The position numbers were made by a program, and so were the translations under genes. DNA of 64,000 nucleotides from Acidobacteriaceae bacterium dw_441. GTDB lineage: Bacteria > Acidobacteriota > Terriglobia > Terriglobales > Acidobacteriaceae. A model generated the notes under the pieces. The model ran no database searches. It was given only the letters and a program-made list of their open reading frames with translations, and was not told the origin of the DNA. The stretch lies in assembly GCA_018449715.1 (NCBI GenBank), contig JAAVVA010000001.1, positions 496,001-560,000 of the forward strand, written 5' to 3'. Position 1 is the stretch's first letter. Each line of letters opens with the position of its first letter. Below, one piece after another: positions 5,248 through 23,591 of this stretch.

Positions 5248-6456
5248 ATGAAGAATCGTTCGCCGTGGAGTCGCAGAGCTTTTTTACAGATGGCAGGATG
5301 CTCGTCGATGGGCATGTTGTCGGCACGTCTGGCCTGGTCGAAGGGGCTCTCCGGCGAGAGCGCAAAAGACCCCCGGTTCGCCTACCTCGGCTATGAGGGC
5401 GTGAGCGCCGACGGCAGCCCGGAGCATGGCATCCAGGTCTTCGCCATCACCGGACGGCGCTGGAAGAAGGTGCAGACGGTCGCCAGCGAGCGCCCCGCCT
5501 TCCTCGCGATGCACCCCAACCAGAAGTTTCTTTACGCGGTCAACGAGATCGACTCGTTCCGTCACCTGCCTGCCGGTTCGGTCGAGGCCTATGTTGTCGA
5601 TCCTGAGAGCGGCCATCTGACGCTGCTGAACCGTCAGTCGCTTGCGCTTTCGGCGACCTCGCCGCGGCACATGGCGATCACTCCCGATGGGCGTTCGCTG
5701 GTGGTCGCGGTGCACGGTGGTGGAGCCTACAACGTGCTTCCGATCGCGGAGAACGGCGAGCTTGGACATGTCACTGGAATCATGAAGGAGATCGGCGCGG
5801 GCGTCGATGAGCACCACCAGAAGGCCGCGCATCCGCAGATGGTAGCGTTCGATTCGACCGGCCGTGTGCTCGGAGCCGACCTCGGCGCGGACCGCCTGAG
5901 CGTCTTCACACTGGCCGATCACCAGATGACGGTTCACGGACGTAGCTCGCTTCGCGCGGGAAGTGGACCGCGGAATATTGCTCTTCATCCAGAGGAGCAG
6001 CTGTTGTTTGTGGCCAACGGGCTGGAGTCCTCCGTCGCGTCGTACCGTTACGATGCCGCCGAGGGCAAGGTTCTCAGCCGCCTCGACGAGGTAACGACGA
6101 CCACGCACGGAGCGAAGGAGAAGGCCTCGGTCGTGATGGCGATGCATCCCTCGGGACGCTTCCTGTTCACCTCGCACCGCAGCCTCACGCCGGGCGAGCA
6201 CGGCAAGGACGGTCTGACCGTGTGGCGCGTCAACACGGCAACGGGCTCGCTGAAGCGCATCCAGGTAGAGAGCGAAGGCCTCAGCGGCGTTCACTCCATC
6301 GTGGCCTCCGCGGATGGCAAGGCGCTGTTCCTTCTCTCGCAGAAGAGCGGTCGCGTGATGCGCCTGAAGGTGGACGCTGCCAGCGGTCGCGTGAGCGGCC
6401 TCGAGACGGTAGCCCAGCTTCCGGCTCCGGCAAGCATGGCGATGAAGCTCGCATAA
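5248..6456 (+). CDS. Exported lactonase family protein (seven-bladed beta-propeller), copy 1
   Basis: This 402-residue protein carries a twin-arginine-type signal, SRRAFLQMA, followed by a hydrophobic stretch, then a YbhE/Pgl-like propeller. Family repeats are visible in LAMHPNQKFLYAVNE, HMAITPDGRSLVVAV, IALHPEEQLLFVANG and MAMHPSGRFLFTSH. The family includes 6-phosphogluconolactonase and other sugar or muconate lactonases. An exported member would act on free lactones in the periplasm, not on phosphorylated ones. It starts a three-gene unit with a mutarotase-like protein and a second lactonase. Its substrate cannot be read from sequence. Some propellers of this fold have lost lactonase activity. 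Confidence 0.82.
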   Translation: MKNRSPWSRRAFLQMAGCSSMGMLSARLAWSKGLSGESAKDPRFAYLGYEGVSADGSPEHGIQVFAITGRRWKKVQTVASERPAFLAMHPNQKFLYAVNEIDSFRHLPAGSVEAYVVDPESGHLTLLNRQSLALSATSPRHMAITPDGRSLVVAVHGGGAYNVLPIAENGELGHVTGIMKEIGAGVDEHHQKAAHPQMVAFDSTGRVLGADLGADRLSVFTLADHQMTVHGRSSLRAGSGPRNIALHPEEQLLFVANGLESSVASYRYDAAEGKVLSRLDEVTTTTHGAKEKASVVMAMHPSGRFLFTSHRSLTPGEHGKDGLTVWRVNTATGSLKRIQVESEGLSGVHSIVASADGKALFLLSQKSGRVMRLKVDAASGRVSGLETVAQLPAPASMAMKLA

Positions 6457-6484
6457 GGACGACTGGATGAGATCGAAAGGAACG

Positions 6485-7609
6485 ATGAAAGCTTCGTCCC
6501 GTGTGCTTCGACAAATGAGATTACGTGGTGCGGTGGTCGTTGCCGGGCTTGCCCTGGCTACGGCTGCTGCATCGGCACAGGCCGCCCCGGCAACCTCGCC
6601 CTGTGCGGATGTTCCGCACAGCGACCACCCGAAGGCCCTGATCTCCAACGGCAAGGTCAATGTGATGGTCTTTCTTCCCGACGCGCAGAACGGTTTTTAC
6701 CGCGCTGCGCGCTTCGACTGGTCCGGCGTAGTAGGCTGCGCCGAGCTGAACGGCCACACCTTCTTCGGCGAGTGGTTCAATCAGTACGATCCCATGAGGA
6801 ACGACGCGATTACCGGACCGGTGGAGGAGTTCCGCTCCGCAGGCAAGGATGGGCACATCGGGCCGAAGGGCGAGTACGCGGTGCAGGCGACTGCCATTGG
6901 ATATGACGAGGCCAAGCCGGGCGAGCTTTTCCTGAAGCCCGGAGTCGGTGTCCTTCGCAAGATCAGCGATGCTCCCTACCAGTTCGGAGCGGCTTATCCC
7001 ATCGTCGACGGAGGCAAGTGGACGAGCGAGGTCAAGTCGCGTTCGGTGACCTTCCGTCAGGTTTTGAATGGACCGGACGGCTACGCCTACGTCTACGAGA
7101 AGGTGCTCTCGCTGGATAAGGACAGCACCATGACGCTCGAGCACCGCCTGAAGAACACCGGCAAGAAGGTGATCGACACCTACGTCTACGACCACGACTT
7201 CTTTATGCTGGACAAGAAGCCGACCGGACCGGGGATGACCGTCCACTTCGCCTTTCCTCCGAAGCCGATTGATCCGATCGGCGACGCGGCGAAGATCGAA
7301 GGCAACGACCTGATCTACGTGGACGCGCTGGCACCTCGCAAGGGAGTCGCAGGCTACCTGACCGGCTACTCGGACAAGGTTTCGGACTACGACTTTACCG
7401 TGAAGGATACGACCACCGGAGTTTCGGTGCGGCAGACCTCGGACACTCCGCTGGCTCGCGTTTACTTCTGGTCGACGCGCAACGCGATCTGTCCCGAGGC
7501 ATATATCCATCTGAATATTCCTCCGGGGAAGACGGGGCACTGGAAGATTCACTACCAGTTCACGGCTCCCGCGTCCTCGGATGTAACTGCCACGAATCTC
7601 TCGAAGTAA
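6485..7609 (+). CDS. Exported galactose-mutarotase-like (aldose epimerase fold) protein
   Basis: This protein of about 374 residues has a signal peptide (VVVAGLALATAAASAQA) and a body that looks like the galactose mutarotase-like fold. The strand and loop sequence TLEHRLKNTGKKVIDTYVYDHDFF is typical of that superfamily, as is an N-terminal FDWSG region. No mutarotase active site was confidently aligned, so it may be a carbohydrate-binding relative and not an epimerase. It lies between two lactonase genes with short spacers, which suggests a shared role in processing sugars or sugar lactones outside the cytoplasm. ATG codons occur at 6467 and 6485 in frame. The second follows an AAAGGA site closely, but either could be used. 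Confidence 0.6.
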   Translation: MKASSRVLRQMRLRGAVVVAGLALATAAASAQAAPATSPCADVPHSDHPKALISNGKVNVMVFLPDAQNGFYRAARFDWSGVVGCAELNGHTFFGEWFNQYDPMRNDAITGPVEEFRSAGKDGHIGPKGEYAVQATAIGYDEAKPGELFLKPGVGVLRKISDAPYQFGAAYPIVDGGKWTSEVKSRSVTFRQVLNGPDGYAYVYEKVLSLDKDSTMTLEHRLKNTGKKVIDTYVYDHDFFMLDKKPTGPGMTVHFAFPPKPIDPIGDAAKIEGNDLIYVDALAPRKGVAGYLTGYSDKVSDYDFTVKDTTTGVSVRQTSDTPLARVYFWSTRNAICPEAYIHLNIPPGKTGHWKIHYQFTAPASSDVTATNLSK

Positions 7610-7618
7610 GGGGAATGA

Positions 7619-8773
7619 ATGTCTACGATCTCAAGGCGTGATTTTGTTCGCGGCTCGTCGGTGCTTGCTCTTGGAACCCACCCCTGGGCGGCGTGGGCGA
7701 AGGGAAGCGGCAAGAAAAGCCTTCTGCTGGTTGGCCCACAGACCTCCGCTCCCAGCACGAGCAAGGGCATCTATGCCTACCACTTCGATTCGTCTACGGG
7801 CGAGCTGGAGCAGATCGGCCTCGCGGTCGAGTCGGAGAACCCGACCTTCTTCGTGCTCTCTCCCGATGGAAAGCTGGTCTATTCGGTCAATGAGGTTCGC
7901 CAGTTCGAGGGCAAGAACGGTGGCTCGGTGTCGAGTTTCGCCTTCGACCGCAAGGCGGCGAAGATGACCGACATCAACAAGTCCTCTTCGATGGGCGGAG
8001 GCCCCACCCACATTGGGATCGACCACACCGGCCGCTGTGTCTTCGCGGCGAACTATGGCGGAGGCAGCGTCGTCTCGTTCCAGGTGGATAAAGATGGGCA
8101 CCTCAGCGATGCGGTCTCCTTCTTCCAGTACGCTCCGGAGGGACCGAAGAAGCGGTCGCACGCGCACCGGGTTACGGTTTCGCCGGACAACCGCTTCCTG
8201 TTGGTGAATGATCTTGGACTCGATGTGATTCACGTCTATCGTCTGGATGCCGAGACTGCCAAGCTGACGCCGCACGATCCTCCGGTCTGGCAGGCTAAGG
8301 AAGGATACGGTCCTCGGGCGCTGCGTTTCCACCCGAATGGCAAGTGGGCCTACTGCGTCAACGAGCTGAAGCCGAATGTAAATGTGCTGGAGTGGGACAG
8401 CGAGAAGGGAGTCCTGACCACGTTGCAGGACATCGCGCTGGTTCCCGAGGGATACGACGGAAAGGCAGCTCCGGCGGATATCGTCTTCGACAAGAAGAAC
8501 CGCTTCGCCTATGTTGCTAGCCGACTGGACGACTTCATGGCGACGTTCACGGTCGATCCCGACACTGGAAAGCTGACCTTCCTCGAGAAGACCTCCTGCG
8601 GCGGAAAGCGTCCGCGCCATCTTGCTCTGGACCCCAGCGACCGCTGGCTGCTGGTGGCCAATCAGGATTCGGACTACATCTCCGTATTCCCTCGCGACCC
8701 GAAGACTGGAAGGCTGTCCAATTCAGGGAAGGACTTTCCCCTGGACCGACCAGAGTGCCTTGTTTTCGTGTAA
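7619..8773 (+). CDS. Exported lactonase family protein, copy 2
   Basis: This 384-residue member of the YbhE/Pgl propeller family has a Tat-type signal, ISRRDFVRG, at its start. Blades appear as FVLSPDGKLVYSVNE, IGIDHTGRCVFAANYGG, VTVSPDNRFLLVNDLG and LALDPSDRWLLVANQ. It closely resembles the minus-strand lactonase at 22434-23591: both share the segments FAANYGGGS and VTVSPDNRFLLVNDLGLD, so they are paralogues. It begins 9 bp after the mutarotase-like gene and closes that operon. A hairpin terminator follows. It probably hydrolyses an aldonolactone or a related cyclic ester in the periplasm. Confidence 0.83.
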   Translation: MSTISRRDFVRGSSVLALGTHPWAAWAKGSGKKSLLLVGPQTSAPSTSKGIYAYHFDSSTGELEQIGLAVESENPTFFVLSPDGKLVYSVNEVRQFEGKNGGSVSSFAFDRKAAKMTDINKSSSMGGGPTHIGIDHTGRCVFAANYGGGSVVSFQVDKDGHLSDAVSFFQYAPEGPKKRSHAHRVTVSPDNRFLLVNDLGLDVIHVYRLDAETAKLTPHDPPVWQAKEGYGPRALRFHPNGKWAYCVNELKPNVNVLEWDSEKGVLTTLQDIALVPEGYDGKAAPADIVFDKKNRFAYVASRLDDFMATFTVDPDTGKLTFLEKTSCGGKRPRHLALDPSDRWLLVANQDSDYISVFPRDPKTGRLSNSGKDFPLDRPECLVFV

Positions 8774-9037: not shown

Positions 9038-10336
9038 ATGTTAGGACGGTGGTTTCGTGTACGTTACTTCCTGGCGTTCTGGCTGTTTGTGTTGAGCGGG
9101 GTCGCGTTTCTTGATCGAACGAATCTTTCGATTGCGGGCCTTCAGATCAGCACGGAGTACGGTCTCGGGAACCAGCGTCTTGGGTGGATCTTCAGTGCGT
9201 TTCTGATTGGATATGCGGGGTTTCAGCTTCCGGCTGGCTGGCTGGCGGCGAGGTTCGGGCCTCGGCGGGTGCTGTCGCTTGGAGTGTTGTCGTGGGGTGT
9301 CGCAACGGCCCTGACGGCGCTGCTTCCCTCGGGGATTCCCTCCGCGGTGTTCCTGTTGATCGGGATACGTTTTGTCCTCGGGGCAGGAGAGAGCGTGATC
9401 TATCCTGCGGCGAACCAGTTCGTGGCGCGCTGGGTGCCTTTGCAGGAGCGCGGTTTCATCAACGGCCTGATCTTCGCCGGTGTCGGCGCGGGAAGCGGTC
9501 TGACGCCTCCGCTGCTGACGTGGCTGATCCTGCATCACAGCTGGCGCGCAGCGTTCTGGTTCAGCGCGGTGATCGGTGTGGTGGTAGGAGGCGTCTGGTG
9601 GCAGTCGGCTCGTGACACCCCGGAGGAGCACCCCGGAATGACACCGGAGGAGCTGAAGGAGATCCGCGACGGCCTCTCGTTCGGCTCGCAGGGCTCACAG
9701 GACCAGGGCGCGGGGGTGATCTCGTGGAGCGCGATCCTGCACCGCCGCGACCTTCCGGCGCTGGTGGTGGGGTACTTCAGCTTCGGTTACGTGGCGTGGA
9801 TCTTCTTCAGCTGGTTTTTTCTGTACATGGCGCAGGTTCGCGGCTTCGACCTGAAGTCGAGCGCGCAGTATGCGATGCTGCCCTTCCTGTGCATGACGAT
9901 CTTCTGCCTTCTTGGCGGGGCCATGAGCGACCGCCTGACCTCGCGTTACGGGCTGCGCGTGGGCCGCTGCGGACTGGCGTCGGTGGCGATGCTGCTGTCT
10001 GCGATCTTCCTCGTGCTGGGCTCGCAGGTGCATAGCCCGCAGCTTGCCGGGGTGATTCTGGCGGGCGGTGCGGGGGCTCTCTACCTGTCGCAGAGTTCGT
10101 TCTGGTCGGTGTCTGTGGATATCGCCGGACGTAGCTCCGGGGTGTTTTCGAGCATGGTCAATATGGGCGGCCAGTTAGGGGGAGCCGTGACCGCCTCCCT
10201 GACCCCGTGGATTGCCCAAAAATACGGCTGGACGACCTCTTTTGCGTTCTCAGCGGCGCTCGCGCTCATCGGATCTGTCTGCTGGATGACGGTCCATCCG
10301 GAGACCCCGCTAAAAGAAGATTTGACAGCTGTATAA
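9038..10336 (+). CDS. MFS transporter, ACS (hexuronate/galactonate-type) family, copy 1
   Basis: This 432-residue carrier has the 12-helix MFS pattern. It carries the ACS-family opening DRTNLSIAG and a first-loop motif (AGWLAARFGPR). The second half has the matching loop in MSDRLTSRYGLR. ACS carriers (GudP, ExuT, DgoT) import sugar acids such as glucarate, hexuronates or galactonate by proton symport, so an organic acid substrate is likely. The start at 9038 was chosen because AAAGGGA lies just upstream and the same start is conserved in the paralogue at 17326. A longer open frame upstream is not conserved between them. Its paralogue is nearly identical over most of its length. Confidence 0.88.
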   Translation: MLGRWFRVRYFLAFWLFVLSGVAFLDRTNLSIAGLQISTEYGLGNQRLGWIFSAFLIGYAGFQLPAGWLAARFGPRRVLSLGVLSWGVATALTALLPSGIPSAVFLLIGIRFVLGAGESVIYPAANQFVARWVPLQERGFINGLIFAGVGAGSGLTPPLLTWLILHHSWRAAFWFSAVIGVVVGGVWWQSARDTPEEHPGMTPEELKEIRDGLSFGSQGSQDQGAGVISWSAILHRRDLPALVVGYFSFGYVAWIFFSWFFLYMAQVRGFDLKSSAQYAMLPFLCMTIFCLLGGAMSDRLTSRYGLRVGRCGLASVAMLLSAIFLVLGSQVHSPQLAGVILAGGAGALYLSQSSFWSVSVDIAGRSSGVFSSMVNMGGQLGGAVTASLTPWIAQKYGWTTSFAFSAALALIGSVCWMTVHPETPLKEDLTAV

Positions 10337-10384: not shown

Positions 10385-11683
10385 GTGACTACTCATCCAT
10401 ATTTCGTGGACGTGTGTAATCACGCGGCGGTGAAGTCATTCACCGCTCCGCGCAGCGTCTTTGTGCGCCGTCTGTGTTGTTGGGGCGTTCTATCCTTTGC
10501 CCTTTGTTGTCATGCGTTTGCGGAGCCAGAAACGCATCCTGCAACGGTTGTGCCTCCCACCTATCTCGCCGCAAAAGACGCTTCGAAGACGCTTCCCAAA
10601 ATCTCTCCCTGGTTTTCGAAAAAAGCCGAGCCTGAAGAATCGCATATTGATCTTGAGAGCGGGCAGCCCGATATTGTCATCCTCTTTGACCGGGATCTCC
10701 CCTACGACACAGGACAGACCGAGGTCCGCTACCGCCTCGTCGGTTATGACTCGGAATGGAGGAACACGCGCTTCCGATCCGCGCATTACAGCCAGCTAGC
10801 CCCGGGACGCTATCGCTTCGAGGTGCAGGAGCGGCAGGACGGCAGCAGCGAGTGGCTTTCGCATGTGCTGACCCTCTCGGTCGGGCAGCGACCCGATCTC
10901 TATCAAACCTGGTACTTCTATCTCGCGCTGACGGTGCTGGCCATTGTGCTTCCGGCCTATCTCTATCGCCGTCGCGTACAGATGATGAAGGGGCATATCG
11001 GAATCGTTCTCGAAGAGCGCAACCGCATTGCGCGGGAGTGCCACGATACGCTGATGGCCGGTTTTGCCGCGATCTCGTGGCAGCTGGAGGCCACGGCGAA
11101 GCTGTTTCACGATGGAGAGCTGGAGACGACGCCCGCGGCGAAGTCCTGCGAACTGGCGCGCAGCATGGTCTCGCACTGCCAGGCGGAGGCCCGCCGCATC
11201 ATTTGGGATCTGCGCGACAGCGACGAGATCACCAGCGTCCTTTCGCAGGCGCTGGCCCGTGCCCTGACGGCGAATCATCTGCGCGAATCCATTGCGACGG
11301 TGCTGGATGTGGAGGGGGATGAGATTCCTCTGCCTCCGGGCTGCGTGCATCACCTGGTCTGCATAGGGCAGGAGGCGATTACCAACGCCGTTCGCCATGC
11401 CGATCCCACCAACATCATGGTTCACCTCAAGTACGAGGCGGATGCGCTTGCACTGTCGATTCGCGACGACGGGCATGGTTTTCTGGCATCCGACCGCTCC
11501 GCCTCCCGACACGGGCATTTTGGAATCCCGGTCATGGAAGAGCGTACTCGCAAGCTTGGAGGAACCTTCCGCCTGCAGACGATGGTCGGCAGCGGAACAG
11601 AGGTTAGCGTCCGAGTTCCATTCAACGCAATGCAGCAGCCTGTGAACCAGGAACATCACGTCATACGGTGGATCGGTATATGA
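10385..11683 (+). CDS. Sensor histidine kinase (HisKA_3 type)
   Basis: This 432-residue protein has an N-terminal hydrophobic signal or anchor (about 30-46), then a periplasmic segment resembling a Y_Y_Y (triple-Tyr) domain (about 95-168). A transmembrane helix (about 176-194) leads to the dimerisation/phosphoacceptor helix with His220 in RIARECHDTL. The HATPase domain shows QEAITNAVRHA (N box) and IRDDGHGF (G1). This is the NarX/LuxR-coupled kinase class. It lacks the large propeller sensor often joined to Y_Y_Y domains. The GTG start is the first plausible one. It overlaps the response regulator by ATGA. Set between a sugar-acid carrier and exported catabolic enzymes, it probably senses a periplasmic substrate of this locus. 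Confidence 0.87.
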   Translation: MTTHPYFVDVCNHAAVKSFTAPRSVFVRRLCCWGVLSFALCCHAFAEPETHPATVVPPTYLAAKDASKTLPKISPWFSKKAEPEESHIDLESGQPDIVILFDRDLPYDTGQTEVRYRLVGYDSEWRNTRFRSAHYSQLAPGRYRFEVQERQDGSSEWLSHVLTLSVGQRPDLYQTWYFYLALTVLAIVLPAYLYRRRVQMMKGHIGIVLEERNRIARECHDTLMAGFAAISWQLEATAKLFHDGELETTPAAKSCELARSMVSHCQAEARRIIWDLRDSDEITSVLSQALARALTANHLRESIATVLDVEGDEIPLPPGCVHHLVCIGQEAITNAVRHADPTNIMVHLKYEADALALSIRDDGHGFLASDRSASRHGHFGIPVMEERTRKLGGTFRLQTMVGSGTEVSVRVPFNAMQQPVNQEHHVIRWIGI

Positions 11684-12303
11684 AGCAGATACGCGTTCTC
11701 CTCATTGAGGATCATTTCCTCGCCCGGATAGCCCTTCACTCTGTCCTTTCAGGGCATTCACAGATCCGGATCATCGGAGAAGCCTGCGATGGCGAGTCCG
11801 GCCTCGCCATGTATCGTCAGCACCGCCCGGATGTGGTGGTGCTCGACCTGCGGCTGCCTCGCATCAGCGGCTTCGAGGTCATCACGGAGCTTCGCAAGGA
11901 GTTTCCCTCGGCGCGCATCGTCGTGCTCTCGAACTACCGGGGCAGCGAAGATATTTACCGCGCCGTGCGCAGTGGAGCGATGGCCTATCTCACGAAGGAC
12001 GCCAGCGGGGAAGAGTTGCTGAACGCGATTCAGAACGTGGACCGCGGGCTGCGTTATCTTCCGCACATGGCGCTCGACCGACTGGCCGAGCGTATGCCTT
12101 CGGTCGAGCTGACGCCGCGAGAGTCCGAGGTGCTGGCCTGTATCACGCAGGGGCGCAGCAATCGCGAGATCGCGGAAGAGCTGCGGATTGCGGAGAAGAC
12201 GGTGCGGATTCACGTCAGCTCCGTGCTCGACAAGATGGGAGCCCGGGACCGGACGCAGGCGACGATCTACGCTCTGCAGCGGGGTCTGATTCATCTGGAC
12301 TGA
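11680..12303 (+). CDS. NarL/LuxR-family response regulator
   Basis: This 207-residue protein has an N-terminal receiver with acidic pocket Glu10-Asp11, phosphoacceptor Asp56 (VVVLDLRLP) and Lys in YLTKDAS. A C-terminal LuxR helix-turn-helix follows (LTPRESEVLACITQGRSNRE, then the recognition helix in EKTVRIHVSSVLDK). The ATG at 11680 overlaps the kinase stop as ATGA, so production is translationally coupled. This start is preferred over the GTG at 11668. It should be activated by the adjacent kinase and probably controls the surrounding carrier and exported-enzyme genes. No repeated binding site was recognised. Confidence 0.9.
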   Translation: MKQIRVLLIEDHFLARIALHSVLSGHSQIRIIGEACDGESGLAMYRQHRPDVVVLDLRLPRISGFEVITELRKEFPSARIVVLSNYRGSEDIYRAVRSGAMAYLTKDASGEELLNAIQNVDRGLRYLPHMALDRLAERMPSVELTPRESEVLACITQGRSNREIAEELRIAEKTVRIHVSSVLDKMGARDRTQATIYALQRGLIHLD

Positions 12304-13203: not shown

Positions 13204-13370
13204 AAGCGTCTGGAGATCGAGAACGGGGAGTATGGCATTAGTCCTATGACAATTGCCCTCGCTTGAGTTCAGATGAAGGAATATTTTTACCAACCAGTTA
13301 CAGACACGGGCTCCGAGCCCGGTGGTCGGTTGTTTTAAGCCTCACATGATGGATGAAAGGAAGGTTCTCG

Positions 13371-14692: not shown

Positions 14693-15178
14693 ATGGATCA
14701 GAAACAATCGAGAAGGGGTCTTCTTAAGAACGCAGCCAAGGCGGCAGTCGTTGCAACCGGTGGGGCGATGATGACGCAGAGCGCTTCGGCGAAGTCGAAA
14801 GACAAGCTGGAGAAGAAGTCGTATCCGCCCGCCAAGCCGAGCGCCGATGGCAAGCCCCCGATGTATTCGAGCGCGGTTTCGTTCGGAAACCTGCTTTTCC
14901 TCGCCGGAGTGGGAGCCCACTTCGAGGGAACGATCGAGCAGCACACCCAGCACGTTCTGGATGAGTTGAAGGCGAAGCTCGAGAGCGCCGGTTCGTCAAT
15001 CGAGAAGGTCCTCAAGGTCAACGTGTACCTGAACGACCTGAAGGACTACGCCGCGATGAACAAGGTCTACGCGACGACGAACTGGGGCGCGGTTCCCCCG
15101 GTCCGGACGACGGTGGCTCCAGCTGCCGGCATCCCCGGCAACTCGCTGATCGAGATCGACCTGATCGCTCACCTCTAG
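14693..15178 (+). CDS. Tat-exported RidA family protein, copy 1
   Basis: This 161-residue protein has a twin-arginine signal, QSRRGLLKNAA, to about residue 33, and a RidA (YjgF/L-PSP) domain. The domain keeps the catalytic arginine, Arg138, in PPVRTTVAPAAGIPGNSLIE. RidA proteins hydrolyse reactive enamine or imine intermediates released by PLP ammonia-lyases to keto acids plus ammonia. It lies directly between two exported SelA-like PLP enzymes, which is the expected partnership if those enzymes release 2-aminoacrylate-like intermediates. An AGGAGG site lies before the start. RidA is normally cytoplasmic, so export is unusual. Confidence 0.85.
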   Translation: MDQKQSRRGLLKNAAKAAVVATGGAMMTQSASAKSKDKLEKKSYPPAKPSADGKPPMYSSAVSFGNLLFLAGVGAHFEGTIEQHTQHVLDELKAKLESAGSSIEKVLKVNVYLNDLKDYAAMNKVYATTNWGAVPPVRTTVAPAAGIPGNSLIEIDLIAHL

Positions 15179-15297: not shown

Positions 15298-16917
15298 ATG
15301 TCGCCACTTCGCAATGCCAAATGGTCGCGCCGGGAGATGCTCAAGCAGTCCGGAATTCTTTCTGCACTGGGGGCCGCGTCCGCGGCTGCTCCGCTTACGG
15401 CCAGCGCCGCTGGATTGGCGGAGAAACCCGCCCCGAAGCATACGCTGACCCACGACGGCGACATCCACGACAACCTATTCACCCGCATCGGCGTTCGTCC
15501 GATGATTAACGGACGCGGCACCTTTACGATCATCAGCGGCTCGACGTCGCTGCCCGAGGTGAAGCAGGCGATGTACGACGCCTCTTTCTTCTACGTTCAC
15601 CTCGACGAGATGATGAACGGCATCGGCGCGCAGCTTGCAGAGCTGACCGGGGCGGAGTGGGGAATCACGACGACGGGCTGCGCGGCGGCGACCTGTCTTG
15701 CGACCATCGCCTGTATCGCCGGAACCGACGTCGAGAAGTGCCAGGTGCTTCCGTTCATCAAGAAGAAGGACCAGGTCATCATCCCGAAGCACTCGCGCAA
15801 CCCCTATGACATCGGTGTGCGCATGGTTGGGGCCGAGATCGTCGAGGTGGACTCCGTCGAGGAGTTCCGCGCGAAGATCACCGACCGCACGGCGATGATC
15901 TATATTCTTTCCGGGCCGGACTCAACCTCTGGCCCTATGAGCATCGCGACCCTGTGCGCCATCGCGAAGGAGAAGGGCATCCCCGTCTTCGTCGATGCCG
16001 CTGCCGAGGAGCCGCGCAAGCCGAACATTCACCTTGAGGCGGGGGCCACCCTTGTGGCTTACTCCGGCGGCAAGTGTATGCGCGGGCCGCAGTCGGCGGG
16101 CCTGCTGCTGGGAGACAAGAATCTTTGCAAGGCGGCCTACTATCAGGCGGCCCCGCACCACTGTTTTGGACGCGCCCTGAAGTGCAGCAAGGAAGAGGCG
16201 ATGGGAATGCTGGCGGCGGTCCGCCAGTGGCACAAGCGCGATCACGAGGCCGAGCAGGCGCAGTGGCTCTCGTGGATGCAGCACATCGCCGACCGCGTGA
16301 AGGGGCTTCCTTCGCTGACCGCCGTGGTTTCACCCGCGCATGAAGACCTCTCCAACCGCTGCCCTACGGTTCGGATCAGCTGGGATGCGAAGGTCCTCGG
16401 GATCACAGGCACGGAGCTGGCGGCCAAGCTCGACGCAGGCTCGCCCCGCATTACGCTGGCCGGGGCGCAGGGCGTCCGTCCGGGCATGATGCAGAGCGCT
16501 ATCGGTGTGACCTCGTACATGATGTCTCCGGGAGACGAGAGCATCATCGCCGACGCGCTGTACGCGGCCTTCAAGAACCCCGGAACCTACAAAGACCCCG
16601 TGGTTCCCTCCGGTGCTCCGGCCTCTGTCGCGGGACACTGGGACGTTAGCATCAAGTATCTTCGCGGCACCGGCGAGCAGCAGTTCGTTCTCGAACAGAA
16701 TGGCGGCACGGTGACCGGCGAGCAGCATGGCGAGCACTACACCGCGAAGTTCGAGGGCGTCGTTCACGGCGACCAGGTGGAGTTGCACAGCGTCATGCCG
16801 GTTCCCGGCAACCCCTTCCGCTGCACGCTCAAGGGAACGGTGCAGGGCAATAACATGTCTGGAACGATCAACATGGGAGAGTACGGCGATGCGACCTGGA
16901 GCGCGATTCGGGCCTGA
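15298..16917 (+). CDS. Tat-exported SelA/DgaE-like PLP enzyme with C-terminal beta domain, copy 2
   Basis: This 539-residue protein starts with WSRREMLKQSG and a hydrophobic stretch (Tat-type), then a SelA-like PLP domain. The domain contains VFVDAAAEEPRKP and the lysine motif VAYSGGKCMRGPQSAG. From about residue 440 an extra domain of about 95 residues follows (GHWDVSIKYLRGTGEQQF onward) with regular Gly-rich strands, such as LEQNGGTVTGEQHG and CTLKGTVQGNNMSGTI. This looks like a small beta barrel or sandwich. Copies 1 and 3 lack it. AAGGAGA stands 7 bp before the ATG. It lies 119 bp after RidA1. It is likely an ammonia-lyase or related enzyme. The extra domain could bind substrate or a partner. 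Confidence 0.82.
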   Translation: MSPLRNAKWSRREMLKQSGILSALGAASAAAPLTASAAGLAEKPAPKHTLTHDGDIHDNLFTRIGVRPMINGRGTFTIISGSTSLPEVKQAMYDASFFYVHLDEMMNGIGAQLAELTGAEWGITTTGCAAATCLATIACIAGTDVEKCQVLPFIKKKDQVIIPKHSRNPYDIGVRMVGAEIVEVDSVEEFRAKITDRTAMIYILSGPDSTSGPMSIATLCAIAKEKGIPVFVDAAAEEPRKPNIHLEAGATLVAYSGGKCMRGPQSAGLLLGDKNLCKAAYYQAAPHHCFGRALKCSKEEAMGMLAAVRQWHKRDHEAEQAQWLSWMQHIADRVKGLPSLTAVVSPAHEDLSNRCPTVRISWDAKVLGITGTELAAKLDAGSPRITLAGAQGVRPGMMQSAIGVTSYMMSPGDESIIADALYAAFKNPGTYKDPVVPSGAPASVAGHWDVSIKYLRGTGEQQFVLEQNGGTVTGEQHGEHYTAKFEGVVHGDQVELHSVMPVPGNPFRCTLKGTVQGNNMSGTINMGEYGDATWSAIRA

Positions 16918-17325: not shown

Positions 17326-18636
17326 ATGTTAGGACGTTGGTTTCGAATTCGGTATTTTCTTGCGTTTTGGTTGTTTGTGCTGAGTGGAGTCTCATTCCTT
17401 GATCGGACGAATCTTTCGATTGCAGGCCTTCAGATCAGCACGGAGTACGGTCTGGGGAACCAGCGCCTTGGCTGGATCTTCAGCGCATTTTTGATTGGAT
17501 ATGCAGGATTTCAGATTCCCGCAGGCTGGCTGGCGGCCCGCTTTGGACCCCGCAAGGTTCTTACCCTTGGCGTGCTTTCGTGGGGAGTCGCCACGGCCCT
17601 GACGGCTCTGCTGCCCTCCGGAATTCCGTCGGCGGTATTTCTGCTGATGGCCATCCGCTTCATGCTTGGAGCCGGTGAGAGCGTGATCTATCCTGCGGCG
17701 AACCAGTTCGTTGCCCGCTGGGTTCCCATGCAGGAGCGCGGCTTCATCAATGGCCTGATCTTCGCCGGTGTCGGCGCGGGAAGCGGTCTGACGCCCCCGG
17801 TTCTAACCTGGCTGATCCTGCATCACGGCTGGCGCGCTGCCTTCTGGTTCAGCGCGATTCTTGGCGTTGTCGTCTGCGTGGTGTGGTGGCAGTCGGCGCG
17901 TGATCTTCCCGAGGAGCACCCCGGAGTGACGCCGGTGGAGCTGAAGGAGATCCGCGATGGTCTTTCGTTCGGCTCGCAGAAGGACTCCGGTTCCTCGCAG
18001 CTCTCGTGGAGCGCGATCCTGCACCGCCGCGACCTTCTCGCCCTGGCGGTTGGCTACTTCAGCTTCGGTTACGTGGCGTGGATCTTCTTCAGCTGGTTCT
18101 TCCTATACATGGCGCAGGTCCGCGGCTTCGATCTGAAGTCGAGCGCGCAGTACTCGATGCTTCCATTCCTGTGCATGACCGTGTTCTGCCTTCTGGGTGG
18201 AGTCCTGAGCGACCGCCTGACCGCGAAGTTCGGTCTGCGGGTGGGACGTTGCGCCCTGGCTTCGGTTGCCCTGTTTCTGTCGGCGATCTTCCTCGTGTTT
18301 GGCTCGCAGGTCCACAGCCCCCAGCTTGCCGGGGTAATCCTGGCGGGTGGCGCAGGTGCCCTGTACCTGTCACAAAGCTCGTTCTGGTCGGTCTCGGTCG
18401 ATATCGCGGGCCGCAGCTCCGGAATATTTTCGAGCATGATCAACATGGGAGGACAGCTTGGAGGAGCCGTAACCGCCTCGCTGACCCCGTGGATCGCGCA
18501 GCGCTATGGCTGGACGACCTCGTTTGCAGTAGCCGCGGGTCTAGCCCTGCTTGGCTCTATCTGCTGGATGACGGTTCACCCGGAGCGTCCCTTGCAGGTG
18601 GAATCCACCGAGCCGGAGCAGCTTCTGGCCAAGTAG
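17326..18636 (+). CDS. MFS transporter, ACS family, copy 2
   Basis: This 436-residue 12-helix carrier is nearly identical to copy 1 at 9038-10336. Long stretches such as NQRLGWIFSAFLIGYAGFQ and ESVIYPAANQFVARWVP match, and most differences fall in the central loop and C-terminal tail. It keeps the ACS signature DRTNLSIAG. GAGAGGGA lies 5 bp before the ATG. The substrate is probably a sugar acid or keto acid released by the exported enzymes. Having one carrier in each half of the locus suggests duplication to serve two related substrates or conditions. Confidence 0.88.
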   Translation: MLGRWFRIRYFLAFWLFVLSGVSFLDRTNLSIAGLQISTEYGLGNQRLGWIFSAFLIGYAGFQIPAGWLAARFGPRKVLTLGVLSWGVATALTALLPSGIPSAVFLLMAIRFMLGAGESVIYPAANQFVARWVPMQERGFINGLIFAGVGAGSGLTPPVLTWLILHHGWRAAFWFSAILGVVVCVVWWQSARDLPEEHPGVTPVELKEIRDGLSFGSQKDSGSSQLSWSAILHRRDLLALAVGYFSFGYVAWIFFSWFFLYMAQVRGFDLKSSAQYSMLPFLCMTVFCLLGGVLSDRLTAKFGLRVGRCALASVALFLSAIFLVFGSQVHSPQLAGVILAGGAGALYLSQSSFWSVSVDIAGRSSGIFSSMINMGGQLGGAVTASLTPWIAQRYGWTTSFAVAAGLALLGSICWMTVHPERPLQVESTEPEQLLAK

Positions 18637-18859: not shown

Positions 18860-19438
18860 ATGGAGATGAATTCGCGCCGTAACTTCTTCGGAAAGATTGC
18901 TGCTATGGCAGCGGCCTTTGCCGGTTCCTCGAAGCTCTTCGCCCAGCAGACGCCCGCCACTCCTGCAACCCCTGCCGCTCCTCCCGCAGGACCGGGAGCA
19001 GAGCGTCCGCGCCGTTTCCCCAACCACACCCACAACGGAATCTTCTACTTCTCCGGAACCGGTTCCAACGACGGTTACCCGAAGGACGATCATGTTCTGG
19101 TGACGGATCCCTTCGAGAAGCATGTGACCCGCACGATGGATGCCCTGAAGCGGTCGGTCGAGCGCGCGGGCAGCAACATGGACAGCATCATCAATCTGCA
19201 GGTCTTCCTCTGCCTTCCCCTGGCCGACGGCGTACCCACGCTCACCGGAAAGGCCCGCTTCGATGCGCACAAGGCGCAGTATGATGCGTTGAACAAGATC
19301 TACGGAACCTATTTCAGCCCCGGCAAGGCTCCGGCGCGTGCCTGCATGGCGCTCGAGTGGATTCCTGGCGACTCTCTGATCGAGATCGTCGGAAGCGCCA
19401 CCGTCGTCAATCCGCCCGCCCCCCCGGCGAATTCGTAA
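18860..19438 (+). CDS. Tat-exported RidA family protein, copy 2
   Basis: This 192-residue protein has a twin-arginine signal, NSRRNFFGKIAAMAAAF, a Pro/Ala-rich linker (about 31-50) and a RidA domain with the catalytic arginine Arg160 (APARACMALEWIPGDSLIE). Compared with copy 1, it has an insertion in the middle (LPLADGVPTLTGKARFDAHK). The AAGGAGA site is 9 bp upstream. It precedes SelA copy 3 by 61 bp, repeating the RidA/PLP-enzyme pairing seen at 13371-16917. The expected activity is hydrolysis of imine or enamine products outside the cytoplasm. Confidence 0.83.
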   Translation: MEMNSRRNFFGKIAAMAAAFAGSSKLFAQQTPATPATPAAPPAGPGAERPRRFPNHTHNGIFYFSGTGSNDGYPKDDHVLVTDPFEKHVTRTMDALKRSVERAGSNMDSIINLQVFLCLPLADGVPTLTGKARFDAHKAQYDALNKIYGTYFSPGKAPARACMALEWIPGDSLIEIVGSATVVNPPAPPANS

Positions 19439-19499: not shown

Positions 19500-20882
19500 A
19501 TGATCCTGAAGTCTGGTTGGAACCGCCGTTCCTTTTTGTCCGCCCTTGGCGCCCTGAGCGGAAGCATGTTCACACCCGCCGAGATGCGGGCCGCCGCCCC
19601 CAAGAAGTCCAAGACGGGCGCTGCCCCGGTCGATGGACACCCGATTGTCCCGATCACCAGCGGTCTCGGCTCGACCGGCGACGTTTATGCGGAGCTTGGT
19701 GTGAAGCCCCTGGTCAACATCGTCGGTACGGTCACCGTCATCGGTGGCTCGGTGATGAAGCCCGAGGTGATGGAGCTGATGCGCCAGGGCAACCAGCACT
19801 TCGTGATGATCAACGAGCTTGAGGTTGCAGCGGGCCGTTACATCGAGAAGCTCTGTAAGACGCCTCCCGGCTATACCGGACTGGTGACCGGCGGTGTGGC
19901 TGCCGGTATCGTCGTTGGCTACGCCGGAATGCTGACCGAGGATCTCGAGCCCCGCATGAAGGTGGTTCCCGACCTCACCGGCTTCCCCAAGACCGAGGTC
20001 ATCATCCAGAAGGCGCATCGCAACAACTTCGACCACCAGGTTCGTCAGACGGGCGTGAAGCTTGTCGAGGTGGAGACGAAGGAGCAGATGATCAACGCCA
20101 TCAACCCGAAGACGCTGGCGATGCACTACATCAACATCCAGTCGGACCGCGGCAAGGTCAGCGGCGCCGAGATGCTCGAGATCGCGAAAGCGCACAACAT
20201 CTACACCTTCAACGACGCTTCGGCGGACGTTCCGCCGAAGGAGCGCCTGTGGGAGTACCCGGCGCAAGGTTGGGACTTCGTGGCTTTCTCGGGCGGCAAG
20301 GACATCTGCGGCCCCCAGGCTTCGGGCATCCTGATCGGCAAGGAAAAGCTGATCCGCTGGGCGCAGATGAACATGAGCCCGCAGGAAGACCGCATCGGTC
20401 GTTCGAGCAAGGTAGGCAAGGAGACGATCTTCGCCCTGCTCAAGGCGCTCGAGCTGTTCGTCAACCAGGACTACGACGAGGTCATTCGCAGCTACGACGC
20501 TCGCGCCGAGGTCATCACCAAGGCCGTTGCGAAGTTCGGCGTGACCGCTCTGCCGCGCCAGTTCAACCCGAACGCTCTGGGCAACGTGACGCCGCACTAC
20601 AGCTGGCAGATCGATCCCTCGAAGGTGAACATCACCTCCGACCAGATCATGCAGCAGCTCGCGGAGACGAAGCCTGTCGGTATCGGCAGCCTGAGCGCCG
20701 ATGCAGCCGGTATGCGTGGTCGTAACCCCGATGCCCCGGCAGGACAGGCGCCTGCGCCTCGCCGTCGCGCACCGCGTGATCCTCACACCTTCGGTTTTGC
20801 CATGTGGCAGCTGAAGGAGGGCGAGGACAAGCTCATCGCCGACCGTCTGGTCGAGATCCTGAGCGCTGCGCCGAAGGCGTAA
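19500..20882 (+). CDS. Tat-exported SelA/DgaE-like PLP enzyme, copy 3
   Basis: This 460-residue protein has a Tat-type start, WNRRSFLSALGALSG. The PLP body has the Asp motif TFNDASADVPPKE and the lysine motif VAFSGGKDICGPQASGILIG. The likely substrate-domain start, AELGVKPLVNIVGTVTVIGG, aligns with the same region of copies 1 and 2. A Pro/Arg-rich insertion (DAPAGQAPAPRRRAPRD) occurs near residue 420. It lies between RidA2 and an exported amidohydrolase of the EF_0837/AHA_3915 type. That amidohydrolase family is known to be encoded beside SelA-like EF_0838 proteins, so this pair looks like an exported version of that module. Confidence 0.82.
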   Translation: MILKSGWNRRSFLSALGALSGSMFTPAEMRAAAPKKSKTGAAPVDGHPIVPITSGLGSTGDVYAELGVKPLVNIVGTVTVIGGSVMKPEVMELMRQGNQHFVMINELEVAAGRYIEKLCKTPPGYTGLVTGGVAAGIVVGYAGMLTEDLEPRMKVVPDLTGFPKTEVIIQKAHRNNFDHQVRQTGVKLVEVETKEQMINAINPKTLAMHYINIQSDRGKVSGAEMLEIAKAHNIYTFNDASADVPPKERLWEYPAQGWDFVAFSGGKDICGPQASGILIGKEKLIRWAQMNMSPQEDRIGRSSKVGKETIFALLKALELFVNQDYDEVIRSYDARAEVITKAVAKFGVTALPRQFNPNALGNVTPHYSWQIDPSKVNITSDQIMQQLAETKPVGIGSLSADAAGMRGRNPDAPAGQAPAPRRRAPRDPHTFGFAMWQLKEGEDKLIADRLVEILSAAPKA

Positions 20883-20919
20883 GCTAAGAACCGAACATAG
20901 CCTCTACCTGGACTTCCCG

Positions 20920-20960: not shown

Positions 20961-20996
20961 GTTAGAATCAACCCCCAGCCGAGATCGAGGAGCTTC

Positions 20997-22361
20997 ATGA
21001 CCCATCCGTTTGCCCGACTGACACGTTCCATCCTTTCCTGCTGCGCGGTTCTCTCGCTTGCCGCCGCTTCTGTTCATGCCTACGCCCAGGCTCCCAACTT
21101 TGCTTATGATCTGGTCCTGCAGAACGGGCACGTCATCGACGACAAGAACCACATCGACTCGGTGATGGACGTTGCCATCAAGGATGGAAAGATCGCGAAG
21201 GTCGCCCAGCACATCGCGTCTTCGGACGCTCTGAAGGCGATCGACGTGAAGGGTCTCTACGTGACCCCCGGCCTCATCGACCTGCACTTCCACGGCTTTG
21301 AGAATCCCGGCGAGCGCGGCTCCTACGCGGGCGACAACAGCATCCGTCCCGACGGCTTCACCCTCCGCACCGGTGTCACCACGGTGGTCGACGCGGGTTG
21401 CGCGGGCTGGCGCAACTTCGAGGAGTACAAGGAACGCATCATCGATCGTCAGAAGACCCGCATCCTCGTCATGCTGAACATCGTTGGCAGCGGTATGCGC
21501 GGCGGCAAGTACGAGAACAACCAGGCGGACATGGACGGCGAAGCCACCGCCGCGATGGCGCTCAAGTATCCGAACATGATCGTCGGCGTGAAGACGGCGC
21601 ACTACGCCGGACCCGAGTGGACTCCGGTCGAGCAGGCTGTGATCGCCGGAACCAAGGCCAACATCCCGGTCATGGTCGACTTCGGCGAGAACCACCCCGA
21701 GAGCCGTCCGCTGTATGACCTGCTGACCAAGAAGCTGCGTCCCGGCGACATCTACACCCACATGTACTCCGGTCTGCGCAACGAGCAGGACCCCACGACG
21801 AAGGGACCGAGCAAGGCCTTCATTGAAGGTCGCAAGCGCGGCGTGATCTTCGACGAAGGAACGGGCGGCGGAAGCTTCCGCTTTTCGCTCGCGGTTCCGA
21901 TGGTCAAGGACGGTTTCCTTCCCGATTCCATCTCGACCGACCTTCACATCGGCAGCATGAACGGTGCGACCAAGGACGAGCTGAACGTCGCCAGCAAGAT
22001 GATGGCGATTGGCCTTTCGCTGCACGAGGTGATCGCCGAGATGACCTCGCACCCGGCGCGTGAGATCAAGCACGAGGAGCTGGGTAACCTCTCCGTCGGA
22101 TCGGTTGCTGACATCGCCGTGCTCCGCCTCGAGGATGGTCACTTTGGCTTCACCGACATGGACAACGTCCGCGTCGATGGCACGAAGAAGCTGACCGACG
22201 AGATTACCCTCAAGGACGGCAAGATCGTGTACGACCTGAACGGCATGGAAGCCGACAAGTACGGCGCTCCCGCCAGCCCGAACGCCGACCAGGCCTATCG
22301 CTGGACGAGCTTCGCGCGCGGTCCGCGCCCGACGGTTCCGTCCGACAACAACCGCCACTAA
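20997..22361 (+). CDS. Exported amidohydrolase/deacetylase (EF_0837/AHA_3915-like)
   Basis: This 454-residue protein has a Sec-type signal (SILSCCAVLSLAAASVHAYAQ) and a metal-dependent amidohydrolase barrel. The metal motif is His97 and His99 (GLIDLHFHG). A likely carbamylated Lys lies in IVGVKTAHYAGPEW, and the catalytic Asp in SISTDLHIGSMNG. The small beta domain frames both ends (LQNGHVIDDKNHIDSVMDVAI and VADIAVLRLEDGHFG). Relatives deacetylate N-acyl amino acids or open cyclic amides and are found beside SelA-like enzymes. Here it may remove an acyl group before a SelA-like enzyme acts. The true substrate is unknown. A strong bidirectional terminator follows. Confidence 0.85.
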   Translation: MTHPFARLTRSILSCCAVLSLAAASVHAYAQAPNFAYDLVLQNGHVIDDKNHIDSVMDVAIKDGKIAKVAQHIASSDALKAIDVKGLYVTPGLIDLHFHGFENPGERGSYAGDNSIRPDGFTLRTGVTTVVDAGCAGWRNFEEYKERIIDRQKTRILVMLNIVGSGMRGGKYENNQADMDGEATAAMALKYPNMIVGVKTAHYAGPEWTPVEQAVIAGTKANIPVMVDFGENHPESRPLYDLLTKKLRPGDIYTHMYSGLRNEQDPTTKGPSKAFIEGRKRGVIFDEGTGGGSFRFSLAVPMVKDGFLPDSISTDLHIGSMNGATKDELNVASKMMAIGLSLHEVIAEMTSHPAREIKHEELGNLSVGSVADIAVLRLEDGHFGFTDMDNVRVDGTKKLTDEITLKDGKIVYDLNGMEADKYGAPASPNADQAYRWTSFARGPRPTVPSDNNRH

Positions 22362-22385
22362 TCGCTGCCTCTCAGCAAATAGAAA

Positions 22386-22411
22386 AGCCCAGCTTCGGCT
22401 GGGCTTTTTCT
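22386..22411. terminator. Bidirectional terminator
   Basis: AGCCCAGC (22386-22393), loop TTCG, GCTGGGCT (22398-22405), with A-run before and T-run after. It can end both the plus-strand amidohydrolase transcript and the minus-strand lactonase transcript. Confidence 0.88.
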
Positions 22412-22433
22412 GTGTCTGCTGTCAGGGGGAAGG

Positions 22434-23591
22434 CTACACGAACACGATGCATTGTGGCCGGGAGAGAGGGAAGTGTTTCCCTTCGTTGGCCAGCTTGCCT
22501 GTCTTCCGGTCACGGGCGAAGACGGAGAGGGTATCGGTTGCTTGATTGGCCACCAGCAGCCACCGCTCGCTCGGATCGAGAGCGATGTGCCGGGGCGTCT
22601 TGCCTCCGCACGAGGTCCGCTCCATCAGGGTGAGCTTTCCGTCCGTCGAAGAGACAGAGAACGACACCATGAAGTCGTCCAGACGGTTGGCGACGTAGAA
22701 GAATTTGCCCGTCCGGTCGAGGATGCCCTCCGAGGGAGCCGATGGCCCGGTGTGGCCATCTGGCACGGTTGAGATCGTCTGAACGGTCGTGAAGATGCCC
22801 TTCTGCGCGTCCCAGTGCAGCACGCTCACCGACGATCCCACCTCGTTCACGCAGTAGGCCCACCTGCCGTTCGGATGAAACTGGAGCACGCGAGGCCCGG
22901 AGCCCGGCGCCGCTGTCCATGCGGGAGGATCGTTCGGGGTCAGCTTCGCGGTTGCGGCATCCAGACGATAGACGTGGATCGCATCCAGCCCGAGATCGTT
23001 CACCAGCAAGAAGCGGTTGTCGGGCGAGACGGTCACGCGATGCCCGCGCGGCCCCGTCTGCTGAGGCTTCGGGCCGTGGCCGCTGTACTGGAAGAACGAG
23101 ACAGCGGGACTGAGTTTGCCTGAGCCGCCCACGGAGAACGATGCCGCGCTTCCTCCACCGTAGTTGGCCGCGAAGGCGCTCCGTCCCGTATGGTCCACGC
23201 TGACGTGGCAGGTTCCGGGGCCACCAGCGGAGACCTCGCTGAGCTTGGTCAGCTTCTCTGCTTTGCGGTCGATGGCGAAGCTGGAGACGGCTCCGCTCGG
23301 CTTGCCCTCGTACTCATCCAGCTCGTTGGCGGCGAACAGTGTCTTCCGGTCGGGGGAGAGGGCGAGGAAGGTTGGGCTATCGGCCTCGACCGCGAGCCCC
23401 CGCTGCGTCAGTTCGCCCGTCGCCGGGTTGAAGTGATAGGCATAAATGCCTTTGCTTGTCTTCGCAGTCTGGGTTCCCACAAACAGCAACCGCTCTCCGG
23501 TCTGTTGTGCCAGCATCGCCAGAGGGGTGGCTCCAAGAGCCGTTGCCGCCGCCGAACCCTGAAGGAACCCTCGTCTCGATATCTTTGTCAT
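22434..23591 (-). CDS. Exported lactonase family protein, copy 3
   Basis: This 385-residue propeller protein has a Tat-type signal, KISRRGFLQGSAAATALG. It shares long segments with copy 2 at 7619, for example the blade VTVSPDNRFLLVNDLGLD and the closing LVANQ segments, so the two are recent paralogues. The start at 23591 follows AAGGAAG. An upstream in-frame ATG at 23654 would add an unlikely basic extension before the Tat signal. It is the only gene of the locus on the minus strand and shares its terminator with the amidohydrolase. It probably opens a sugar or related lactone in the periplasm. Confidence 0.83.
   Translation of the reverse strand: MTKISRRGFLQGSAAATALGATPLAMLAQQTGERLLFVGTQTAKTSKGIYAYHFNPATGELTQRGLAVEADSPTFLALSPDRKTLFAANELDEYEGKPSGAVSSFAIDRKAEKLTKLSEVSAGGPGTCHVSVDHTGRSAFAANYGGGSAASFSVGGSGKLSPAVSFFQYSGHGPKPQQTGPRGHRVTVSPDNRFLLVNDLGLDAIHVYRLDAATAKLTPNDPPAWTAAPGSGPRVLQFHPNGRWAYCVNEVGSSVSVLHWDAQKGIFTTVQTISTVPDGHTGPSAPSEGILDRTGKFFYVANRLDDFMVSFSVSSTDGKLTLMERTSCGGKTPRHIALDPSERWLLVANQATDTLSVFARDRKTGKLANEGKHFPLSRPQCIVFV

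Follow-up and report, generated by a model that had tools for sequence, protein, structure and literature searches.

What would enzymes of deamination be doing outside the cytoplasm, when pyridoxal phosphate (PLP) chemistry and the repair of enamines by RidA are mostly described inside it? This question is raised by a locus at 5248-23591 of a 64-kb stretch (positions 496001-560000 of contig JAAVVA010000001.1), here called the window, of the 4.9-Mb genome of Acidobacteriaceae bacterium dw_441. Among its fifteen counted genes are three DgaE/SelA-like PLP enzymes (S1, S2 and S3), two RidA proteins, an RraA-like protein, an amidohydrolase and three lactonase-family proteins, all of them with sequence features of export signals. 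Families were assigned by Pfam, NCBIfam and PDB sequence searches of the window proteins, and what these reveal is a conserved locus of known enzyme families in an unusual compartment. On balance we favour, with some reserve, the reading that the locus is a deaminating catabolic module outside the cytoplasm, with (N-acetyl)-hexosaminates derived from sugars of the N-acetylglucosamine (GlcNAc) type as the likeliest substrates. The reading draws on gene content, signals, catalytic residues, conservation, a single exported branch and a signal-less counterpart, all found in the sequences. From these we infer activity, substrate (glucosaminate included), order of steps and direction of transport.

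The sequence-only reading had assigned twin-arginine translocation (Tat) signals to the PLP enzymes, the RidA proteins and the lactonases, and had described the RraA-type protein and the EF_0837-like amidohydrolase as exported; both assignments were borne out in the window and in relatives. Taking as Tat criterion an RRx(F/L/M) motif preceding a hydrophobic stretch, we found such signals in S1, S2, S3, both RidA proteins and all three lactonases, the weakest stretch being that of the lactonase at 7619. The RraA-like protein, the amidohydrolase and the protein at 6467 have a hydrophobic N-terminus with no RRx(F/L/M/V/I/A) motif, i.e., they are Sec-like. The genome also encodes TatC, and at the level of sequence the motif-bearing proteins thus have the features of Tat substrates. 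In the loci from the Genome Taxonomy Database (GTDB) described below, 85 of 86 assessable PLP copies passed the Tat test, compared with 1.9% of 1720 shuffled N-termini; in the failing copy (L102), and in nine copies without a located core, the arginine pair is visible by eye. Partner proteins of the same loci were mostly Tat-like in the case of RidA (25 of 36, with 10 Sec-like and one without signal) and Sec-like in the case of the amidohydrolases (35 of 40, with four flagged Tat and one without signal) and RraA (11 of 13, with one Tat and one without signal). A cruder signal test gave Tat in 48/59 PLP proteins of the family Acidobacteriaceae but also in 4/19 proteins of the major facilitator superfamily (MFS), and is therefore unspecific for membrane proteins. 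The N-terminal motifs might, alternatively, be unused and the enzymes stay cytoplasmic. We consider such an illusion of annotation very improbable, given that the arginine pair and hydrophobic stretch recur over several phyla far above the shuffled rate, that the partner proteins carry signals of their own, and that the translated alphaproteobacterial relatives have no N-terminal extension. The signals in the window and its relatives are, by sequence, Tat- and Sec-like.

That these genes form a set conserved in relatives is also upheld. Among 100 genomes of the family, 63 matches to TIGR01437, the model of the DgaE family ammonia lyase, fell in a high tier (at least 95 bits) spread over 23 genomes, the window genome included; this tier, set and counted by hand, lies above a lower tier of ordinary SelA. 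The window genome has five PLP copies, of which three lie within the window. In a sample of the phylum 15/149 genomes matched at 1e-40, as did four of the eight genomes listed for the genus to which the window belongs, and the trait is therefore patchy. All high-tier matches other than the three of the window and one contig-end fragment gave 49 family regions, with overlaps between L037 and L038 and between L049 and L050. The window's order of MFS carrier, histidine kinase, response regulator, RraA, S1, RidA and S2 was found in seven other loci (L037, L045, L054, L056, L085, L089 and L094), including the named isolates Acidicapsa dinghuensis (L085), Edaphobacter aggregans (L089) and Bryocella elongata (L094). 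A TonB receptor stands between the response regulator and RraA in L045, L085, L089 and L094, an insertion that the window lacks. S3 and RidA occur with the same regulator and carriers in L049 and L055, and Acidobacteriaceae KBS 146 (L084) has the row S1-RidA-S2-amidohydrolase-MFS-RidA-S3-amidohydrolase-lactonase. Proteins like lactonase A were found in L037, L045, L056 and L059.

S3-like proteins are often near RidA, RraA, MFS carriers, an IclR regulator and the gene families c3, c4 and c7. Judged by one tested member each, c3 is SMP-30/gluconolactonase, c4 and c16 are quinoprotein propellers of the pyrroloquinoline quinone (PQQ) type, and c7 is cytochrome c. Across the 49 family loci we counted RidA of either kind in 31, quinoprotein in 21, RraA and MFS in 18 each, cytochrome c in 15, SMP-30 in 14 and amidohydrolase in 13; these counts are partly circular, as the profiles were built from the same loci, and the GTDB count is fairer. 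As controls, 20 regions of 20 kb were chosen by hand away from lyase matches in nine lyase-bearing genomes. RidA, RraA, amidohydrolase, SMP-30 and MFS were found in none of the 20, a quinoprotein in one and a TonB receptor in six.

Two further associations were seen in the family. S4-like proteins are often near triple-RidA proteins, DUF4380 and cupin proteins; the proteins at 8057-9313 of L036 and 6879-8117 of L058 belong to protein clusters found beside S4 lyases, whose members are exported and about 410-430 residues long, and these two, the members tested, have three RidA-like stretches each. S1 and amidohydrolase also occur with ApbE (L043, L064, L066, L069, L079 and L082), and most of these loci have DUF362, a BamB/PQQ-like propeller and a lactonase as well, which makes them a different association.

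To look outside the family, we searched GTDB contigs using 21 PLP proteins as queries. At least 567 relatives were confirmed, and the 80 GTDB loci are the best 80 of these, ranked by similarity to S1 including its signal, which favours exported kin. Two of them duplicate family loci (L088/L042 and L092/L076), and 13 are shorter than 8 kb. The hosts are many acidobacterial groups, Bacteroidota (Spirosoma, Larkinella, Dyadobacter, Chitinophaga, Flagellimonas and Cyclobacterium), Balneolaceae, Gemmatimonadetes and one planctomycete metagenome-assembled genome (MAG). Lyases from MAGs named 'Arcobacter' and 'Alphaproteobacteria' (L096, L099 and L111) fall among the acidobacterial ones in the tree, and these contigs may be mis-binned. 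At least one of RidA, RraA and amidohydrolase is present in the examined stretch of 45/80 loci (amidohydrolase 35, RidA 32, RraA 13), with SMP-30 in nine, MFS in eight and quinoprotein in six. Bacteroidota conserve a set of RidA, lyase and amidohydrolase, sometimes with RraA, and L140, L145, L146, L147 and L158 have it as SusC/D-RidA-lyase-amidohydrolase. Other neighbours include a family present in 13/80 loci whose tested member has GSDH and cytochrome c domains, a small cytochrome c, CBM9 proteins and an SBF carrier closest to PanS (below cut-off). The GSDH/cytochrome c protein and the SBF carrier are seen, like SusC/D, in Bacteroidota.

In the favoured deaminating module, periplasmic dehydrogenases would oxidize C1 to give a sugar lactone, lactonases, putatively including the three of the locus, would open it, and the exported amidohydrolase would take off the N-acyl group before elimination. 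The Tat-exported DgaE-like lyase would then eliminate the 3-hydroxyl of the 2-amino-3-hydroxy acid to leave an enamine, and exported RidA would hydrolyse the enamine/imine to a 2-keto-3-deoxy acid and ammonia. This acid would be imported by the MFS carriers, or first cleaved by RraA, with the gene set under control of the two-component system. The part of the sequence-only reading that placed deacylation, lyase, RidA and uptake outside the cytoplasm stands as the best reading, while its scheme missed the oxidizing step and the signal-less form in Alphaproteobacteria.

The residues of the PLP enzymes fit the lyase step in part. Their closest solved structure by sequence is D-glucosaminate-6-phosphate ammonia-lyase (DGL; 7lc0/7lce, 6e-29), and pairwise identity among S1, S2 and S3 is only about 31-33%. 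In an alignment to DGL, the PLP lysine is found in the motif S-G-x-K in 80/80 exported rows (Lys-217 of the DGL paper is residue 213 counting along the PDB chain), and 77/80 have either Arg (51) or Lys (26) at the position of the carboxylate-binding Arg-226. In place of Arg-301 of the phosphate cluster, 55 of the 80 rows have His and 13 have Thr. The pair His-162/His-163, the proton donor of DGL, is found in 0/80 exported rows; some His occurs in this stretch in 31/80, where the alignment is gapped. Both aligned positions are His in 5/6 cytoplasmic rows (in Streptomyces as H-T-H), and neither is in Haladaptatus. The H163A variant of DGL is reported to remain active but to release enamine, with an intermediate near 293 nm, and the paper points to RidA-type enzymes for the clearance of enamines (PMC9529869). 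By analogy, the exported enzymes without the pair may therefore release enamine. Loss of His-163 as the full reason for RidA is weakened, as RidA is also adjacent to alphaproteobacterial lyases in which the pair is present. At its C-terminus S2 is extended by about 95 residues (about 445-539), a conserved stretch with no Pfam match that is common to the aligned S2 relatives.

The missing pair, together with three divergent paralogues kept side by side, would also suit a transaminase, epimerase or decarboxylase acting on a surface polymer or secreted metabolite, in the manner of the periplasmic PLP enzyme PvdN, with RidA guarding the periplasm from side products. We regard this as improbable, since the catalytic lysine and the carboxylate position are DGL-like and the trio of amidohydrolase, RidA and lyase is also found signal-less beside transporters of the ATP-binding cassette (ABC) type.

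The partner enzymes carry most of the residues expected of their families. Both RidA proteins pass PF01042 (73.4 and 47.2 bits, cut-off 27.3) and miss TIGR00004 (66.9 and 37.9 bits, cut-off 106); R138 is conserved in 62/62 and E154 in 61/62 aligned sequences, and we take this Arg and Glu to be catalytic. The amidohydrolase passes NF006689 and misses TIGR03583, the EF_0837 model (202 bits, cut-off 432), and its His97, His99, Lys199, His255 and Asp315 are present in 52/52 rows. The RraA-like protein has R157-D158, a pair that at least 85% of 31 sequences keep and that aligns with the R-D pair of the aldolase 3noj, which makes it a putative aldolase. The chemistry might thus run as in the favoured module up to the keto-deoxy acid, which RraA would then cleave outside to pyruvate and an aldehyde, the MFS carriers importing other acids. 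Some RraA-fold proteins are non-aldolases, and RraA is missing from the examined stretch of most GTDB lyase loci. Where RraA-like genes do occur (18/49 family and 13/80 GTDB loci), the proteins are, in GTDB, mostly Sec-like as given above, and DgaE is paired with an aldolase, DgaF (PMC9529869). We hold this external cleavage to be possible but doubtful.

Where the exported enzymes came from is suggested by relatives with no signal. Searching plasmids by tblastn with DGL gave 316 records, of which nine were fetched, two of them without annotation. In Aminobacter and Sagittula the lyase is near genes for amidohydrolase, RidA, an IclR regulator and an ABC transporter, and on three Rhizobium plasmids it is accompanied by RidA and an ABC transporter, with no amidohydrolase within the 11-kb view. 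The annotated alphaproteobacterial loci thus combine lyase, RidA and ABC transporter in 5/5 and have an amidohydrolase in 2/5. No signal was seen on the three alphaproteobacterial lyases translated, nor on the Aminobacter and Sagittula amidohydrolases and three RidA proteins translated. In a 91-row tree, a single branch (support 100/100, all of 200 bootstraps) separates 80/80 exported rows from cytoplasmic DgaE, and a Haladaptatus protein on a long branch is their uncertain sister (92/43). The simplest picture from these sequences is that a cytoplasmic deamination module moved outside once, noting that the sampling favours a single move. Two haloarchaeal records had neither RidA nor amidohydrolase within view. 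Among haloarchaeal DgaE-like proteins, L229 has no signal and carries the exported-branch motif SGGKxIRGPQ, with a PIG-L deacetylase and a mannonate dehydratase nearby, and L232 has heparinase-like genes nearby.

Candidates for the oxidizing step, a quinoprotein or GSDH-type dehydrogenase, cytochrome c and an SMP-30 lactonase, lie beside the module in a minority of the relatives' loci. In the window genome, an operon-like row of TonB receptor, cytochrome c, SMP-30 and quinoprotein, located at about 37-44 kb on the contig that holds the window, matches the profiles from relatives' lyase loci (838, 324, 509 and 912 bits, respectively). The genome has many matches to PF01011, including three long frames of 747-827 residues, as well as PqqE above its cut-off and a 2-keto-3-deoxy-6-phosphogluconate aldolase.

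Several results weigh against the deaminating amino-sugar module. S1-S3 score far below the curated TIGR01437 cut-off of 385 bits, which was exceeded in 0/100 family genomes, and the proton-donor pair is missing as described. Asp228 of the amidohydrolase (52/52 rows) stands where 2ogj, 8wzy and 2ics have His, presumably on the fifth metal-ligand strand, and the reaction of this enzyme is therefore uncertain. RidA, RraA and amidohydrolase are all absent from 11/49 family loci and from the examined stretch of 35/80 GTDB loci. The window has no dehydrogenase of the expected kind, a quinoprotein or SMP-30 was found in only 13/80 GTDB loci, and a quinoprotein together with RidA in two. The quinoprotein elsewhere in the genome reaches 523.5 of the 650 bits required by the 'acido-empty-quinoprotein' model and 472.4 of the 480 required by that of PQQ alcohol dehydrogenase, so that PQQ use is not assured. 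NagA above its cut-off and a NagB-like protein below suggest that a conventional amino-sugar route may coexist. Finally, BhcR is a regulator of beta-hydroxyaspartate metabolism, and the IclR regulator of one relative is closer to BhcR (200.5 bits) than to KdgR (175.7 bits), both below cut-off.

The missed quinoprotein cut-offs, the thin dehydrogenase link in GTDB and the nearness of IclR to BhcR led us to lower slightly the amino-sugar reading and its extended form below, and to raise slightly another, i.e., the same exported chemistry with N-acylated D-amino acids as substrates, or with 3-hydroxy amino acids in free form (D-Ser, D-Thr, wall-derived), the lactonases and carriers being neighbours that serve other roles. 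The regulator would fit such substrates, 28/49 family loci lack both a quinoprotein and SMP-30 in the vicinity, and the ABC transporters of the alphaproteobacterial relatives are annotated without a substrate. OngC, a deaminase of glucosaminate, accepts D-Ser and D-Thr too (PMC9537276). We nevertheless rate such amino acids an unlikely answer, as the carriers are closest to the D-galactonate subfamily and SMP-30, quinoprotein/GSDH and CBM9 proteins are neighbours in some loci.

If the favoured amino-sugar module is extended to a complete extracytoplasmic route, GlcNAc-type sugars would be oxidized by quinoprotein/GSDH enzymes passing electrons to cytochrome c, opened, deacetylated and deaminated. 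Acetate and ammonia would thereby be given off externally, and what enters the cell would be solely a keto-deoxy acid without nitrogen. In this extended form, the route would have a single origin from a cytoplasmic module. The DGL proton-donor pair would have been lost, leaving an enzyme that may release enamine and rely on RidA, and the route would have spread among Acidobacteriota, Bacteroidota, Balneolota and Gemmatimonadota. We put this full proposal forward tentatively. If a widespread exported pair of lyase and RidA is real, cells run elimination and deamination outside, with Tat carrying a folded, cofactor-loaded enzyme. It would also suggest that nitrogen is stripped from amino-sugar-type acids before uptake, with electrons going straight into cytochrome c, and would give a testable role to many genes whose present names go no further than 'aminotransferase class V-fold PLP-dependent enzyme' or 'RidA family protein'.

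The positions of all features are collected in the table. In the sequence-only reading positions and families were right, including two carriers around one two-component system, except for the protein at 6467-7609, labelled mutarotase-like, for which no Pfam, NCBIfam or PDB sequence match was found. Homologues of this protein occur in 11/100 Acidobacteriaceae genomes; none is among the open reading frames (ORFs) of the 49 family lyase loci, and one partial ORF (L091) was found in the 80 GTDB loci. Its candidacy as a core part of the module was rejected on account of its absence from the family loci. MFS carriers 1 and 2 share 85.4% identity at the protein level and 82.4% at the DNA level across 1.29 kb, and by sequence the pair is a duplication flanking the regulator-RraA-S1-RidA-S2 block. 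Just upstream of lactonase A, the window also encodes a protein with two cytochrome c stretches (3837-4931). COG3964 in the table is the name we take to denote EF_0837-type amidohydrolases.

Table. Genes counted in the locus, with positions in the window and the basis of each assignment.
Feature	Position	Strand	Basis and remarks
7-bladed lactonase-family protein A	5248..6456	+	PF10282, 200 bits; Tat-type signal SPWSRRAFLQ
Exported protein without assigned family	6467..7609	+	Hydrophobic N-terminus; module membership doubtful
7-bladed lactonase-family protein B	7619..8773	+	PF10282, 351 bits; Tat-type signal STISRRDFV
MFS carrier 1	9038..10336	+	PF07690; 9038 is the probable start (ORF listed from a TTG at 8825)
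Y_Y_Y histidine kinase	10385..11683	+	Family search; position conserved in relatives
LuxR-type response regulator	11668..12303	+	Family search
Exported RraA-like (class II aldolase fold) protein	12371..13144	+	PF03737, 128.8 bits; Sec-type signal
S1, putatively Tat-exported DgaE/SelA-like PLP enzyme	13353..14642	+	TIGR01437, 176 bits; PLP lysine K255
RidA 1	14693..15178	+	PF01042; Tat-type signal KQSRRGLLK; R138 and E154 present
S2, putatively Tat-exported DgaE/SelA-like PLP enzyme	15298..16917	+	TIGR01437, 145 bits; C-terminal extension
MFS carrier 2	17326..18636	+	Closest subfamily D-galactonate (TIGR00893, 237 bits, cut-off 395); ORF listed from 17257
RidA 2	18860..19438	+	PF01042; Tat-type signal NSRRNFFGK
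S3, putatively Tat-exported DgaE/SelA-like PLP enzyme	19500..20882	+	TIGR01437, 148 bits
Exported EF_0837/COG3964-type amidohydrolase	20997..22361	+	NF006689, 393.7 bits (cut-off 371); Sec-type signal
7-bladed lactonase-family protein C	22434..23591	-	PF10282; Tat-type signal KISRRGFLQ

Among known systems, we recognized no exported ammonia-lyase/RidA route in the titles and abstracts of the open-licence PMC literature. PvdN of Pseudomonas, which is exported by Tat, is also a fold-type I PLP enzyme outside the cytoplasm; however, it is described as acting in pyoverdine formation and not in a catabolic cluster. The amidohydrolases of the EF_0837/COG3964 type (2ics, 2ogj, 8wzy and 8je0) share with that of the window the family and the HxH, Lys, His and Asp residues. 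The window enzyme differs from 2ics, 2ogj and 8wzy by its signal peptide and Asp228, whereas 8je0 is not clearly aligned there. The clusters of amidohydrolase, RidA and DgaE-like lyase in Aminobacter and Sagittula, and of RidA and DgaE-like lyase in Rhizobium, place the same families side by side as the window does. They differ in that those translated have no signals, an ABC transporter replaces the MFS carriers, the lyase has the His pair, the Aminobacter and Sagittula amidohydrolases have the usual His of MVHVGEP, and their RidA looks from its sequence like a different Rid subtype.

DGL itself shares with the window enzymes the SelA-like PLP family, the PLP lysine and the carboxylate-binding position, but works on a phosphorylated substrate after uptake by the phosphotransferase system, and its partner DgaF is an aldolase (PMC9529869). 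The window enzymes instead have Tat signals and no His-162/His-163 pair, and at the phosphate-cluster Arg-301 exported rows mostly have His or Thr. The closest likeness in logic is to the Ong pathway of Pseudoalteromonas prydzensis, in which deacetylase, PLP deaminase and RidA are each reported as essential for growth on N-acetylglucosaminate and 2-keto-3-deoxygluconate is formed in the cytoplasm (PMC9537276). That pathway has TonB receptors, as do clusters of some relatives but not the window's. However, OngB and OngC are predicted to be cytoplasmic, and the unprocessed acid enters through a sodium/solute symporter (SSS) carrier (PMC9537276). OngB is of the D-aminoacylase type and OngC of fold-type III, whereas the window enzymes are EF_0837-like and SelA-like and carry signals. 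Collectively, the module is not a member of the Ong pathway, but by analogy it likely works like it.

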